This document shows, piece after piece, positions 26,039-32,204 of a DNA stretch of 34,494 bases; position 1 is the first letter of the stretch; the number at the start of each line of letters is the position of its first letter. The position numbers and the translations under genes are program-made. Location of the stretch: the NCBI GenBank assembly GCA_009773185.1, contig WPIF01000027.1:1-34494 (forward strand). Direction: 5' to 3'. The DNA comes from Nitrospirota bacterium. Lineage in GTDB: Bacteria > Nitrospirota > Thermodesulfovibrionia > Thermodesulfovibrionales > UBA1546. The notes beneath the pieces were generated by a model, which worked only from the letters and a program-made list of their open reading frames with translations, was not told the DNA's origin and searched no databases.

Positions 26039-26554
26039 TTAAGAGAGCAACTTGTTCACCTCTTTAAGCGCCCTGTCATAATCAGGAGGGTCCGTAAGTT
26101 CTGGAACAATCTCGATATATCTTATGACGTTATTCCTGTCAATGATGAAGATAGAGCGTGCGAGAAGCCTTAATTCCTTTATCAAAACCCCGTATGCGGT
26201 ACCGAAAGAAGCGTCCCTATGGTCAGATAATGCCTTAACCTTATCTATGCCTGCATTTGTACAGAACCTTGATATTGCAAAAGGCAGATCCATACTTATA
26301 TTCAGAACAATTACGCTCTCTGGCAATTTCGACGCCTCCTGATTAAACCTTCTTGCCTGTAAATCGCAGACTGGCGTATCAAGTGAAGGGGTGACGCTTA
26401 TAACCTTTATCTTGCCGTCATAGTCCTTAAGCCTCACTTCTTTAAGGTCTCCGTCAAGCACCGTAAAATCATGCGCCTTATCCCCAACCTTAATCTCTGC
26501 CCCAATAAGTGTCACAGGATTGCCATGTGCCTTAACAATATCTTTTCTTTCCAT
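26039..26554 (-). CDS. tpx: Thiol peroxidase (Tpx-type peroxiredoxin)
   Basis: About 171 residues from ATG 26554, chosen because AGGAAG precedes it; a TTG at 26572 would add six residues without support. The thioredoxin-fold peroxiredoxin has the Tpx signature [18 protein letters not shown] with the peroxidatic cysteine in TPVCD. A second cysteine in SRFCTNAGI is the resolving one, as in atypical 2-Cys Tpx. [20 protein letters not shown] and the [19 protein letters not shown] segment complete it. It reduces hydrogen and alkyl peroxides in the cytoplasm, using thioredoxin. It sits in the superoxide dismutase operon. Confidence 0.95.
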
Positions 26555-26586
26555 AATTCTTCCTGCTTCCAAAAATTTAAATGTTT

Positions 26587-27024
26587 CTATGTAACAAACA
26601 CTATTGCCCTCTTCAGTTCATTAAGCTTACCAAGCAGGTTATGATGTTTCTGTTCATCAGCCAGGAGATAGGAAAGCACATACCGCGTCACAAACAGTTC
26701 ACTGTTTTTGAGCGCTGCATCTGCAAGTTCAAGCGATTTGGCCTCTGCCGCCAGATGTTTGTTAAGTCCGTCTGATAATGAAGCAAGGTCATCAGGGCTC
26801 AAGATAAAAGGTTCCTTTGTGATGCTGTCGATAAGCATCTGCTGCATTAACTTGTGTTTTTGTGAATCATGCTTTATCATCTCCATAGTCATCTTTACAA
26901 GCTTGTTATTGGTCTTCTTCATCATATCGTCTGAAAATTTTATTGTTGAATCTTCCAGTTTCTGCCATTCCCGAATAATGTGTAAAAACTTTCCTGATGT
27001 TTCAACGGCTTTTCTCTTTGCCAT
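26587..27024 (-). CDS. Ferritin-like four-helix protein
   Basis: A 145-residue helical protein with a ferritin-like ligand pattern. Helix 1 has [13 protein letters not shown] and helix 2 has [16 protein letters not shown]. Helix 3 has [16 protein letters not shown] and helix 4 has [16 protein letters not shown]. The E and ExxH residues suggest a diiron or single-metal site. It has no signal peptide. An AAGGAGG precedes the ATG. The gene is 21 bp after the superoxide dismutase stop, so it probably supports iron or peroxide handling alongside it. It is distinct from the two ferritin-like proteins at 18807-19831. Confidence 0.78.
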
Positions 27025-27045
27025 AACAAAACCTCCTTTTTATTG

Positions 27046-27729
27046 TTATTTAAGCCTGGCCTCTGCTGCCTTCCAGTCAATGTTCTTGAAAAATGCCTCT
27101 ATATAGTCAGCCCTTTTAAGCCCGTAATCAAGCATAAAGGCATGCTCAAATACATCCATTATAAGTATCAGGCTGCATCCCGCAGGATGAGCTACATCAT
27201 GCTCATTTATCCAGAAGTTGATTAACCTTCCGCTGGTGTTGTCCTGATAAAGGGCTGTCCAGCCTATGCCCCTCATAGCCCCTGTTGCCTTAAAATCCTT
27301 TTCCCATGCTTCATAGCTGCCCAAACCCTCAGAAAGTTTTTTGGCAAGCTTACCGCCCTTATCTATCCCTCCTTTCCCTCCAAGATTTTCGAAATAATAT
27401 TCATGGAGCCTCATGCCGTTAAATTCCCAGCCTAGCCTTCTTTTAAGCTCGGCAAATTCAGGCACAGATGTCTTTCCGTCCTTTAACATCTGCTCAAGCG
27501 CATCAAGCACCTTGTTTGTATTCGTCACATATCCCTGATAGAGGGTAAAATGATTCTTCAGGAGCGTCTCGCTGAACCCTTCCATTCCTATGAGTTTCGA
27601 ATAATCCTTTGCTGCGTAAGGCATAACCTTTCCCTCCTTTTTGATTTCAGCGGCTATCGGCCTGATAAGCCCCGATGAAAATACCATGCCGCCGATAAAT
27701 GTTATTTTTAAGAACTCCCTTCTGTTCAA
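27046..27729 (-). CDS. Tat-exported Fe/Mn-type superoxide dismutase
   Basis: About 227 residues from TTG 27729, chosen because AGGGAG precedes it and it gives a clean Tat signal, MNRREFLK plus a hydrophobic stretch. The in-frame start at 27762 would add eleven residues. The mature enzyme has SOD ligands: the first His in LLKNHFTLYQGYV, the second in MRLHEYYFEN, and Asp and His in the final DVFEHAFMLDYG. In relatives the DVFEH motif usually reads DVWEH. The partner residue His30 is a tyrosine here. It dismutates superoxide, here outside the cytoplasm. First gene of the long operon. Confidence 0.88.
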   Translation of the reverse strand: MNRREFLKITFIGGMVFSSGLIRPIAAEIKKEGKVMPYAAKDYSKLIGMEGFSETLLKNHFTLYQGYVTNTNKVLDALEQMLKDGKTSVPEFAELKRRLGWEFNGMRLHEYYFENLGGKGGIDKGGKLAKKLSEGLGSYEAWEKDFKATGAMRGIGWTALYQDNTSGRLINFWINEHDVAHPAGCSLILIMDVFEHAFMLDYGLKRADYIEAFFKNIDWKAAEARLK

Positions 27730-27820
27730 ATATGCTCCCTGAAAAAACTCTACCACTTCCAAAATGGCATTTTTATGATTTAAATCATGTTTCGTGTCTG
27801 TTATCCAAAAGCTTAATTAA

Positions 27821-27848
27821 ATGCTATCAAATCTGTACTGAATGTCAA
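27821..27848 (-). promoter_or_regulatory. Candidate sigma-70 promoter for superoxide dismutase operon
   Basis: A perfect TTGACA (27848-27843) and TAGCAT (27826-27821) are 16 bp apart on the minus strand. This would start a leader of about 80 nt before the TTG at 27729. No promoter of similar quality was noticed between the next nine genes. Confidence 0.55.
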
Positions 27849-27860
27849 GTTAATATTGCT

Positions 27861-27889
27861 TTGCAGAAGACAGTCCTAAGTGCTATATT
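27861..27889 (+). promoter_or_regulatory. Extended -10 promoter candidate for the ECF sigma gene
   Basis: TTGCAG (27861-27866) is followed 17 bp later by TATATT (27884-27889), with a TGn extension. A transcript from here would reach AAGGAG at 27901, which is too far from the ATG at 27944 to act. It may provide basal expression. Confidence 0.35.
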
Positions 27890-27911
27890 TGAGGAGGCTT
27901 AAGGAGATAAA

Positions 27912-27941
27912 GGAACAAATCTTCTGCCCGTGTTGTCTAAT
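27912..27941 (+). promoter_or_regulatory. ECF-type promoter upstream of its own sigma gene
   Basis: GGAAC (27912-27916) and TTGTCTAAT (27933-27941) are separated by exactly 16 bp. The same pair with the same spacing precedes the DUF4139 gene at 29851-29880. GGAAC and a TCTAA-like -10 are classic extracytoplasmic-function sigma elements. Its predicted start lies at or just after the ATG at 27944, implying a leaderless message. Confidence 0.6.
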
Positions 27942-27943
27942 AT

Positions 27944-28555
27944 ATGAAAGAAGGCTTAAACATAAAGACTGATGATGAAGATGCTGAGATAGTATCTTTA
28001 TGTAAAAAAGGCGATGTGGATGCCTTTTCGACATTGGTTATAAAACATCAGAAAAAAATGCTGAATATTGCTTACAGAATTGTCGGTAACTATGAGGATG
28101 CATGCGAGGTTGTGCAAGATGCATTTGTATCGGCATATAAGGCGATAAAGACCTTTGAAGAAAAGTCCAGATTCTCTACATGGCTTTATACCATAGTTAT
28201 AAATCTTTCCAGAAACCGCCTTAAACAGATAAAAACCATCATGCACCATGAAAAGTTTTCGCTGGATGACCCTATCCTCACGGATAATGGCAATATAAAA
28301 GCAGAACCTGCATCAGATGAGCCTTCTGTTCTTGAAAAGCTCGAAAAAAGAGATATCCGGCAAAAAGTGCAGGGATGCATAAGCTCTCTGGATAATGAAT
28401 TCAGGGAGGTGCTTGTCCTGAGAGATATTCAGGGGTTTTCCTATGATGAGATAGGAGTTATGCTCAGGATAGCAGAAGGCACTGTCAAGTCGCGTCTTTT
28501 CAGGGCAAGGGATGCTGTTAAGAATTGTTTAAAAAAAGTTTTGGGAGAGTTGTAA
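27944..28555 (+). CDS. ECF (RpoE-type) RNA polymerase sigma factor
   Basis: A 203-residue ECF sigma factor. Region 2 (about residues 20-90) includes DAFSTLVIKHQKKMLNIAYRIVG, the core-binding and -10-recognition AYKAIKTFEEKSRFSTWLYTIVINL, and RNRLKQ. Region 4 (about 135-190) has LDNEFREVLVLRDIQGFSYDEIGVML and AEGTVKSRLFRARDAV. Region 3 is absent, as expected. An in-frame stop (TAA, 27938-27940) forbids an earlier start. No ribosome binding site precedes ATG 27944, so the message may be leaderless. The ORF abuts the anti-sigma gene, whose ATG follows the stop codon directly. Confidence 0.95.
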   Translation: MKEGLNIKTDDEDAEIVSLCKKGDVDAFSTLVIKHQKKMLNIAYRIVGNYEDACEVVQDAFVSAYKAIKTFEEKSRFSTWLYTIVINLSRNRLKQIKTIMHHEKFSLDDPILTDNGNIKAEPASDEPSVLEKLEKRDIRQKVQGCISSLDNEFREVLVLRDIQGFSYDEIGVMLRIAEGTVKSRLFRARDAVKNCLKKVLGEL

Positions 28556-29791
28556 ATGGAATGCAATAAAGTTCAGGAAAAACTTTCAGCACTTATTGAT
28601 GGGATTCTTTCGCAAGATGAAAAGATGCTCGTTGAAGAACATCTTAAATCGTGTGAAAAATGCAGAAAGGTATTGTCTGAACTGAAAAAAACAATAGGGC
28701 ACATAAAAAATCAGGAAGAAATAGAGCCGCCCTTATGGCTTACGCAAAAGGTAATGGCAAAAATAAGGGCAGAGGCAGCTCCGAAGAAAGGGTTATTCGA
28801 GAAACTTTTTTATCCGCTCAATATAAAACTGCCTGTCGGGGCAGTTGCAACAATTGCAATTGCAGTAACAACAATCTATATCTTCAAGTCCATTCAGCCG
28901 GAGATACAGCTTGCAAAAGCGCCGTCTGAGGAGATTATAGAACGCAAGGTTCAGCCGCCTGTCATTGCGAGAGATGAAGTCACGTCCTCTAAAGGCAGAT
29001 ATATCAGGGGAGGAAAGCAGCCGGAGCCTGCTGTGCCAGAGCTTAAAATTTCTAAAGACAAGGCTGATTCGTATTTAACTAAAAAAGAAGTTCTTCAAGC
29101 AGAAAGAGACAAGGCATATATATCAGGTGAAGGCACACCTATTACCGGCAAACCACCGGAACAGCCGATGCCTGCAAAAGAACCCGAAGCCATGAAATTT
29201 GCAGCGCCAAAAGGCCCTGCGCCAGTTATGAAAGAAGATAAGGCTATACCGTCAGCAGGTGCATTTGCTAAAGAAGACGCAAAACGTGAGGTTATATCGC
29301 CATTGCGCAAAACGAAAACATCTCCGCAAACAAAAAAAGAAATTATTTCTATATTTAAGAAGTACTCAGACCTAAACGAAGATTTTATTTATTCTGCATC
29401 TTCTGGATTCGGAAAATCGGGAAAGCCGTACAATGAATTACGCCAGGAAGTAGAAAGATATGGAGAAAATATCTATAACCCTGCATTAGATTCAACAAAA
29501 AATATAGTATGTAGAGATAATGATAAGGAACTACTGTCAGAATATCTCAAAGTATTAATTGCAACCGACAATTCAGCAAATGAATTTCCTTGCTGGATAT
29601 TGGGCGATATTTATTTATGTCAGCCTGAGTTACTAATTTCCATATTTAAAAAATTGGAAAAACCTGAGCAAAAAATAATTTATGGTGCCCTAAGATTTGG
29701 TTTCGAAAATGTGACATACAATAAGGAGAATAATATCCCAAATTATTATCAATTAAAAAAAATGCTTGACTCTTTAAATCAGAAAAAATAA
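28556..29791 (+). CDS. Zinc-finger anti-sigma factor with long C-terminal domain
   Basis: A 411-residue membrane protein. The N-terminal ZAS domain has C3 and the H29-x3-C33-x2-C36 motif (VEEHLKSCEKC), which binds zinc and the sigma factor. One transmembrane helix lies at about 93-110 (PVGAVATIAIAVTTIYIF). A long periplasmic part follows: a Pro/Lys-rich linker (about 120-260), then a compact domain from about 260 (EIISIFKKYSDLNEDF, FPCWILGDIYLCQPELLISIF) that I do not recognise. The ATG follows the sigma stop codon with no gap, so the pair is coupled. The last part has more AT-rich codons than the first, hinting at a separate origin. Confidence 0.85.
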   Translation: MECNKVQEKLSALIDGILSQDEKMLVEEHLKSCEKCRKVLSELKKTIGHIKNQEEIEPPLWLTQKVMAKIRAEAAPKKGLFEKLFYPLNIKLPVGAVATIAIAVTTIYIFKSIQPEIQLAKAPSEEIIERKVQPPVIARDEVTSSKGRYIRGGKQPEPAVPELKISKDKADSYLTKKEVLQAERDKAYISGEGTPITGKPPEQPMPAKEPEAMKFAAPKGPAPVMKEDKAIPSAGAFAKEDAKREVISPLRKTKTSPQTKKEIISIFKKYSDLNEDFIYSASSGFGKSGKPYNELRQEVERYGENIYNPALDSTKNIVCRDNDKELLSEYLKVLIATDNSANEFPCWILGDIYLCQPELLISIFKKLEKPEQKIIYGALRFGFENVTYNKENNIPNYYQLKKMLDSLNQKK

Positions 29792-29850
29792 CAACAATTA
29801 CTTTACGCAAATACTTCCCATTGCATTATCCCCTTAAATTGTTATTTTCA

Positions 29851-29880
29851 GGAACTTTTTCCCAACCTCCTTTGTCTAAT
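29851..29880 (+). promoter_or_regulatory. ECF-type promoter of the DUF4139 gene
   Basis: GGAAC (29851-29855), 16 bp, TTGTCTAAT (29872-29880): identical elements and spacing to the sigma gene promoter at 27912-27941. It gives a short leader with AAAGGAGG before the ATG at 29915. The match in two separate upstream regions makes it a likely target of the adjacent sigma factor. Confidence 0.7.
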
Positions 29881-29914
29881 CAACTAAGAAGTAAAAAACC
29901 AAAGGAGGTTTGTT

Positions 29915-31580: not shown

Positions 31581-32072
31581 TTATTCAACTGTGACTTTCT
31601 TCTCTTTCTGTTTTGCCTCTTCAGTCTTAGGGGCCCTTATTTCAAGAACGCCATCCTTGAAGTTTGCCTTTACCTTATCTGTCTGAACCTCGCTCGGCAT
31701 ACGGAAAGTACGCGTAAAAGAACCGTAAGAGCGCTCAAACCTGTAATAATTTTTCTTTTCAACCTTCTCTTCCTGCTTTTTCTCTCCTGAAATAGTTATT
31801 TTATCATTTGTGATATTCACATCAATCTCCTCTTTTTTCATGCCCGGAAGCTCTGCCTTTACAACAACATCCCCGCCTTCTTCAAAGATATCAACCTTTG
31901 GAGCTATCTCCTCCATTTCAGGCATTTTCAGTCCCGGCCACCATGAGGGCCCGAATAATGAAAACGGCCTCCTGAAAAATTCATCAAACCTTTTCTCCAT
32001 CTCCCCGAAAGGAGAAATAAGCGCCGGCGGGGTTTCCTTCCTTGTCAGTTCCTTTGTTTCTTTCTTTGGCAT
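31581..32072 (-). CDS. Small heat-shock protein, Hsp20 family
   Basis: A 163-residue Hsp20. The ATG at 32072 is chosen because AGGAGG precedes it; upstream in-frame codons have no support. The N-terminus has the aromatic-rich MEKRFDEFFRRPFSLFGPSWWPG typical of bacterial Hsp20 proteins. The alpha-crystallin domain (about 55-150) includes VDIFEEGGDVVVKAELPGMKKEEID, YYRFERSYGSFTRTFRMP and the A-x-x-x-n-G-V-L signature in ANFKDGVLEIRAP. It acts as an ATP-independent chaperone in the cytoplasm. A good sigma-70 promoter lies upstream at 32110-32137. The 3' side is the nested inverted-repeat element. Confidence 0.95.
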   Translation of the reverse strand: MPKKETKELTRKETPPALISPFGEMEKRFDEFFRRPFSLFGPSWWPGLKMPEMEEIAPKVDIFEEGGDVVVKAELPGMKKEEIDVNITNDKITISGEKKQEEKVEKKNYYRFERSYGSFTRTFRMPSEVQTDKVKANFKDGVLEIRAPKTEEAKQKEKKVTVE

Positions 32073-32109
32073 AATAACCTCCTGATAATAAATATTGTGT
32101 TTATTTCCA

Positions 32110-32137
32110 ATTATATCTAAAGCAGATGATATTGCAA
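32110..32137 (-). promoter_or_regulatory. Candidate promoter for hsp20
   Basis: On the minus strand TTGCAA (32137-32132) and a perfect TATAAT (32115-32110) are 16 bp apart. This gives a leader of about 30 nt before the AGGAGG and ATG at 32072. No CIRCE inverted repeat was seen. Confidence 0.5.
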
Positions 32138-32204
32138 GGGACAAAATTTTCAGTTATTTCAAATGCTTTGCACAAGTCCGCTGATGATATGATAGAATTT
32201 TGAT

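Follow-up and report, generated by a model that had tools for sequence, protein, structure and literature searches.

A predicted three-unit ECF sigma factor regulon with promoters overlapping the translation signals of the sigma and DUF4139 genes

An ECF sigma factor gene lies in the window, the 34,494-nucleotide stretch of Nitrospirota DNA that was analyzed. Its product very probably governs a regulon of three units, as judged from motif and gene comparisons: its own operon, a DUF4139 gene and an unlinked gene that encodes a protein designated EXP4. The three targets look as if they share one promoter type, GGAAC-N16-NTGTCTAA, of the sigma-E-type ECF class. Comparison across genomes brings out the promoters, the three putative targets, the overlap of the sigma start codon with its own promoter, and a complementarity specific to each DUF4139 locus. 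The regulon is ordinary in kind, and its unusual part is this overlap of promoters with translation signals. The combined reading, a three-unit regulon whose sigma factor would start its own operon RNA without the sigma AUG, has an even chance of being correct. The features of the locus are collected in Table 1.

Table 1. Features of the sigma operon and the DUF4139 gene in the window
Feature	Position	Strand	Basis or comment
Sigma-70-like site TTTGCA-N18-TATATT	27860-27889	+	9/12 matches, TG before the second hexamer; candidate basal promoter
-35 element GGAAC, sigma-operon promoter	27912-27916	+	Motif search, comparison of upstream regions
-10 element TTGTCTAAT, sigma-operon promoter	27933-27941 (TCTAA core 27936-27940)	+	
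ECF sigma factor, 203 aa	27944-28555	+	PF04542, PF08281, PDB comparison
Predicted +1, sigma operon	27947	+	First base after the sigma ATG; inferred
Predicted anti-sigma factor, 411 aa	28556-29791	+	N-terminal zinc finger PF13490, long C-terminal part
-35 element GGAAC, DUF4139 promoter	29851-29855	+	Motif search and comparison
Anti-Shine-Dalgarno arm AACCTCCTTTG	29864-29874	+	Promoter spacer and start of the -10 region
-10 element TTGTCTAAT, DUF4139 promoter	29872-29880 (TCTAA 29875-29879)	+	
Predicted +1 (A), DUF4139	29886	+	Inferred
Shine-Dalgarno arm CAAAGGAGGTT	29900-29910	+	Ribosome site; perfect 11-bp complement of 29864-29874
DUF4139 protein, 485 aa	29915-31372	+	PF13598

The sigma factor contains sigma-70 regions 2 and 4 (PF04542 at 7.3e-18 and PF08281 at 3e-14) and scores above the TIGR02937 superfamily cut-off. 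All of the RpoE, SigW and SigM equivalog scores shown are under their cut-offs (TIGR02939, for example, gives 131.9 versus 236.15), and by sequence the protein classes as a relative of the RpoE/AlgU/SigW-like group, not as a named equivalog. Its nearest PDB entries are sigma-H/AlgU (6in7) and E. coli sigma-E (1or7 and 6jbq). The promoters of AlgU and E. coli sigma-E read GGAACTT and TCTGA/TCAAA. The gene for the PF13490 zinc-finger protein begins directly after the sigma stop codon, and its product, which has one putative membrane-spanning stretch identified by eye, is predicted to be the cognate anti-sigma factor. The DUF4139 protein reaches 38.3 bits against PF13598, where the Pfam gathering cut-off is 31.8, and its fairly confident structure model (mean pLDDT 82.3, pTM 0.62) consists mostly of beta strands. 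A PDB structure search with this model gave TM-scores below 0.3 and no convincing match, and PDB sequence searches with the DUF4139 protein and EXP4 returned nothing useful for either. The original prediction described the DUF4139 protein as exported; the hydrophobic N-terminus is visible, and the protein is probably exported, a prediction made from its sequence. Two DUF4139 homologues (L034 and L094) each break at about residues 382-398 into two frames that overlap, the result of either a frameshift or an assembly error.

The motif GGAAC-N16-TTGTCTAAT had been proposed to occur at 27912-27941 and 29851-29880 and to be hard to get by chance. Both copies are present with exactly 16 bases between the elements and with different spacers, and 100 dinucleotide shuffles of the window contained a mean of 0.00 matches. 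A scan of the complete genome assembly (G000; 2,787,148 bases in 44 contigs) found two exact matches, both in the window, and 0 exact matches to a reversed control pattern. GGAAC followed by 15-17 bases and GTCTAA had 0 matches genome-wide because the spacing counted to this hexamer is 18. When up to two mismatches were allowed there were 13 matches versus 45 for the control, so loose matches carry no meaning alone. Two genome matches have one mismatch. One of these, L004, is a credible third site. The other, L003, falls within coding sequence resembling that of phages or recombinases, probably by chance. The bases that follow the -35 element (27917-27921, 29856-29860 and the equivalent positions of L004) vary by target; the first of them is A in 8/10 EXP4 and 19/33 ECF clusters, and T in 28/32 DUF4139 clusters.

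The EXP4 site has one mismatch and lies on the minus strand of contig C20 (9290-9319), 33 bases before an ATG. EXP4, encoded on another contig than the window, has 266 aa and a hydrophobic N-terminus and is predicted from its sequence to be exported. It is weakly like PF25534 (22.4 bits, under the cut-off of 27), and its structure model is poor (mean pLDDT 40.6). Of 101 related genomes, 12 carry EXP4 and 22 the ECF sigma factor (E ≤ 1e-30). Eleven of the 12 EXP4-bearing genomes contain the ECF (Fisher 4.7e-8, uncorrected for relatedness), and the twelfth, G058, has a broken fragment only. At L142 (genome G089, contig C25) the motif stands before a short ORF whose beginning resembles an EXP4 signal peptide and which then runs into a stop; this ORF is perhaps a decayed EXP4.

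Upstream regions for a wider comparison were drawn from 80 named loci and from genome searches, using a tolerant motif definition, and the relatives among these loci were mostly Nitrospirae/Thermodesulfovibrionia bins. ECF locus L044, whose upstream DNA was too short, and hits starting past query residue 60 were left out. The motif precedes the ECF gene in 59/59 rows (39/39 distinct upstream regions) and EXP4 in 24/24 rows (12/12 distinct homologues). It precedes DUF4139 in 65 rows (44 distinct) and is absent at 57 loci with enough upstream DNA, and the upstream DNA of three further DUF4139 loci was too short to judge. Presence of the motif tracks a nearby ECF gene. Fifty-four named loci offered 3.9 kb or more of DNA ahead of DUF4139. 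In this set the motif was found at 17 of the 18 with an ECF nearby versus 4 of the 36 without one; 32 loci had neither, and the ECF alone occurred at L116. This association supports a promoter of the sigma factor at DUF4139, as proposed.

A search of 20 genomes, a sample chosen for carrying DUF4139, with GGAAC-N17-TGTCTAA gave 27 matches versus 12 for the control. Twenty-five of the matches lie before the three targets (ECF, 8; DUF4139, 10; EXP4, 7), and the other two are at L142, before the short ORF, and at L149, before nothing. All 13 genomes with a match carry the ECF (E ≤ 1e-30), and none of the seven genomes without a match does. That motif, ECF and targets occur together strongly indicates that this sigma factor uses the motif as its promoter and that these three units make up its core regulon. 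Of the small autoregulated regulon originally predicted, the dedicated regulon is supported, its motif, sigma factor and targets traveling together; a third unit lies on another contig, and autoregulation is doubtful for the reasons that follow.

Transcription start points were predicted from the bases downstream of the -10 element. The seventh base after TCTAA is a purine in 32/32 DUF4139 and 10/10 EXP4 promoter clusters (A in 26/32 and 9/10, respectively), and a pyrimidine precedes it in 28/32 and 9/10. A mapped ECF promoter of Thermoanaerobacter tengcongensis has its -10 element at -11 TCTATA -6 (PMC3397946). Because of the seventh-base rule and the equal spacing in the T. tengcongensis promoter, the start points of the sigma operon and DUF4139 RNAs were assigned as in Table 1. 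The resulting DUF4139 leader would be 29 bases long and would carry AAAGGAGG without the anti-Shine-Dalgarno arm.

The sigma ATG at 27944-27946 is the sole start codon before conserved region 2; an in-frame TAA occupies 27938-27940, and no other in-frame ATG, GTG or TTG lies between that stop and region 2. Shortly past this ATG, the same-genus relative G002 differs by an in-frame 3-base indel. The lack of an alternative in-frame start and the location of the indel make this ATG very probably the true start. Of the 39 distinct ECF promoters, 34 have their first start codon ahead of the predicted +1, and 21 of these 34 have no in-frame start within the next 45 bases; in the other five the start is at or after +1. 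Counted from TCTAA, the first start follows after 4 bases in 23 promoters, 0 in four, 3 in three, 10 in three, and 5, 7 and 30 in one each. At L076, L079 and L080 (3/39) the only in-frame start is an ATG within the -10 element, ATGTCTAAT or ATGTCCAAT. In 31 promoters the first start past the -10 element comes ahead of +1, and 13 of these have another in-frame start within 45 bases. The count for L112 takes TTG as its first start, and a later ATG that follows GAGGAG may be the true one.

A motif before an ECF sigma gene is usually taken as self-amplification, and the original prediction was that this sigma factor drives itself. The promoter is indeed placed before the sigma operon in all 39 distinct regions; the self-drive is the doubtful part, given a predicted +1 beyond the start codon in 34 of them. 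An RNA starting at 27947 would lack the sigma AUG and would therefore serve the anti-sigma gene, which would make the loop a restraining one; with read-through it would carry DUF4139 as well. Arguments that the self-transcript lacks a usable sigma AUG are balanced finely enough that we would put it at one chance in two. No report of an ECF promoter that omits its own sigma start codon was found in the partial texts that made up the literature searched.

The strongest alternative places the RNA start on the first base of the AUG, 3-4 bases past TCTAA, so that the sigma mRNA would be leaderless and the sigma factor would amplify itself. The 4-base gap is constant in 23/39 promoters despite diverged spacers and the corresponding DUF4139 gap is wide-ranging, a pattern more in keeping with a leaderless mRNA than with a lost AUG. 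The geometry leaves no room for a Shine-Dalgarno site, and an SD-like 4-mer is found at the sigma start in only 4/39 ECF promoters. Leaderless mRNAs with a 5' AUG are known in bacteria; S. meliloti has 171, all AUG-initiated (PMC3616915). The starts at L058, L062 and L066 are GTG, unlike those S. meliloti cases. A leaderless start would also lie 2 bases (3 in the window) nearer the -10 element than at the sister promoters and the mapped ECF promoter, and it is impossible in 7/39 promoters (L116, L182, L184, L185, L076, L079 and L080), in all of which the only start codon overlaps the -10 element or lies directly against it. The start-point rule and these seven promoters favor the lost AUG. A leaderless positive loop is possible but somewhat improbable, and we lean slightly toward the lost AUG.

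If the self-transcript lacks the sigma AUG, the sigma factor itself would come from a weaker upstream promoter. The sigma-70-like site in Table 1 is one of 13 in the region versus 9.4 expected, a count that makes any such site weak alone. About 115 bases (27818-27935) are nearly unchanged in G002, and the DNA further upstream has diverged. The sigma-70-like site falls inside this conserved block, which could supply basal sigma. From such a longer RNA, translation of a sigma gene that has no Shine-Dalgarno site would be poor, a point against the lost AUG.

At the DUF4139 gene the promoter lies inside the 5' arm of a predicted hairpin (29864-29874 paired with 29900-29910) that would hide the ribosome site. 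CTCC or CCTC occurs in 25/41 DUF4139 spacers versus 3/39 ECF and 4/12 EXP4 spacers, and 11/32 DUF4139 clusters have no clear CCTCC core. Pairing of the spacers with their own ribosome regions was compared with exchanged partners in 32 DUF4139 clusters, after four rows were dropped (L022, no SD start; L112, L117 and L123, weak motif), and 66/20000 permutations reached the observed value. With the five-base core removed, the flanks alone were matched by 7/20000 permutations (21 clusters with a recognizable core) and, after removal of four relatives, by 43/20000 (17 loci). These permutations control only in part for how closely the loci are related, and a flank test limited to one locus per group was uninformative because nearly all loci chained into a single group. 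The EXP4 control had no own-partner effect, either for whole spacers (8799/20000, 10 loci) or for flanks (1273/20000, 7 loci). Paired changes are found between the arms: CCTCCG with CGGAGG (L079), CCTCCTTG with CAAGGAGG (L108 and L111), and GAACC with GGTTC (L076, L078 and L079).

Folding predictions distinguish RNA that reads through from upstream and RNA begun at the DUF4139 promoter. The mean predicted unpaired fraction of the SD site was 0.26 in read-through RNA, 0.61 in RNA with its own start and 0.39 with shuffled spacers; the corresponding values for the window were 0.00, 0.89 and 0.70. The SD site was less accessible in read-through RNA in 29/32 clusters, and less accessible than with shuffled spacers in 23/32. 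Compared with shuffles, the window fold had a z of -2.84 over 67 bases and was no better over 95 bases (z -0.94); the 67-base run covered four stretches, two of them from other loci, and the L077 stretch misses the promoter. No terminator-like site was found on the plus strand between the anti-sigma gene and DUF4139. A crude orientation count found upstream same-strand ORFs in 22/32 DUF4139 and 6/10 EXP4 rows, a measure too coarse to weigh on read-through in either direction. Silencing of read-through RNA at DUF4139, as these predictions would have it, could go either way with equal probability.

An ordinary ECF regulon, in which neither the start-codon overlap nor the spacer CCTCC has regulatory meaning, would account for the same elements through compact DNA and promoter-favored pyrimidines that are complementary by chance to any Shine-Dalgarno site. 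Because these sites all resemble GGAGG, any CCTCC pairs with them, and pyrimidine-rich spacers are present at EXP4 as well. EXP4 pairing too falls when its spacer is shuffled (4/300 shuffles reach it), and pyrimidine-rich spacers might therefore serve the promoter itself. This explanation is nevertheless unlikely in view of the concentration of CTCC and CCTC in DUF4139 spacers, the better pairing of flanks with their own than with exchanged partners, and the paired changes at L079, L108 and L111. A DNA operator for a dimeric repressor would also produce an 11-bp perfect inverted repeat across the promoter and leader, as seen in the window. Depending on the locus, 17 to 98 bases separate the motif from the SD site, a variability that speaks for pairing in RNA and not for an operator fixed in the DNA, and the arms change yet stay complementary, again unlike a fixed operator; this possibility is very improbable. 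Chance repetition of two promoter-like strings, for which nothing but the small number of sites speaks, is negligible against 0.00 matches expected in shuffles and a motif kept in every distinct ECF (39/39) and EXP4 (12/12) region.

The proposed mechanism joins these elements, and its start points, loop sign and silencing are what we infer. An RpoE/AlgU-like ECF sigma factor and a membrane zinc-finger anti-sigma factor would control three promoters of one kind, two of them overlaid on the translation signals of the sigma and DUF4139 genes. RNA made by the sigma factor would start at or just after the AUG, and anti-sigma factor would be made instead of sigma factor. In read-through RNA from the sigma operon, the spacer arm would fold onto the DUF4139 ribosome site and keep the gene silent; RNA begun at the DUF4139 promoter would lack this arm and be translated. 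The full scheme of promoters acting as translation gates, in which the self-transcript feeds the anti-sigma factor only and the spacer arm silences read-through RNA, is tentative and on balance rather unlikely. If true, the protein made would be set by the choice of promoter and not by the amount of RNA. The base-level reading of the sigma promoter, which may omit the sigma start codon, would if true make the loop restraining and not amplifying, and the geometry of start codon and promoter is kept in many related genomes.

Autoregulated sigma-E/RpoE and AlgU regulons are alike in their GGAAC and TCTAA elements and in the order of sigma then anti-sigma gene in one operon. The present case departs from them in two ways: the window genome yielded only three units, and the predicted +1 of the sigma promoter falls on the sigma start codon or beyond it. 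At sigR p1/p2 of Streptomyces coelicolor, the sigma-dependent promoter is located upstream and adds 55 residues (PMC4921905). The promoter used determines the available ECF sigma start codon there and would do so here; the difference is that the sigma-dependent promoter here would remove the start codon. Late promoters of phage T4 lie inside hairpins that hide the ribosome-binding site at gene e, soc, 49 and I-TevI, and those of gene e lie in the 5' arm, so that only late RNA is translated well (PMC3014915). The likeness to the T4 genes is a hairpin 5' arm in the promoter region, which only RNA begun at that promoter escapes; the difference is a chromosomal gene and an ECF sigma factor here, by prediction, versus a phage late sigma factor in T4. 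A promoter spacer with anti-Shine-Dalgarno function, if true, would be a cellular counterpart of the T4 arrangement. Literature searches found no read-through arrangement of this kind and no pairing of DUF4139 with a sigma factor, and the two papers found on DUF4139, judged by titles and the beginnings of abstracts, did not concern bacterial regulation. DUF4139, a family without known function, gains a putative regulator and a co-regulated partner, EXP4.

The DNA flanking the locus (26039-27762 and 31581-32144) encodes a redoxin, a 145-aa protein without a Pfam match, a superoxide dismutase and an Hsp20. The iron/manganese superoxide dismutase gene is divergent from the sigma gene. The redoxin, superoxide dismutase-like and Hsp20 neighbors hint at a role in envelope or oxidative stress.
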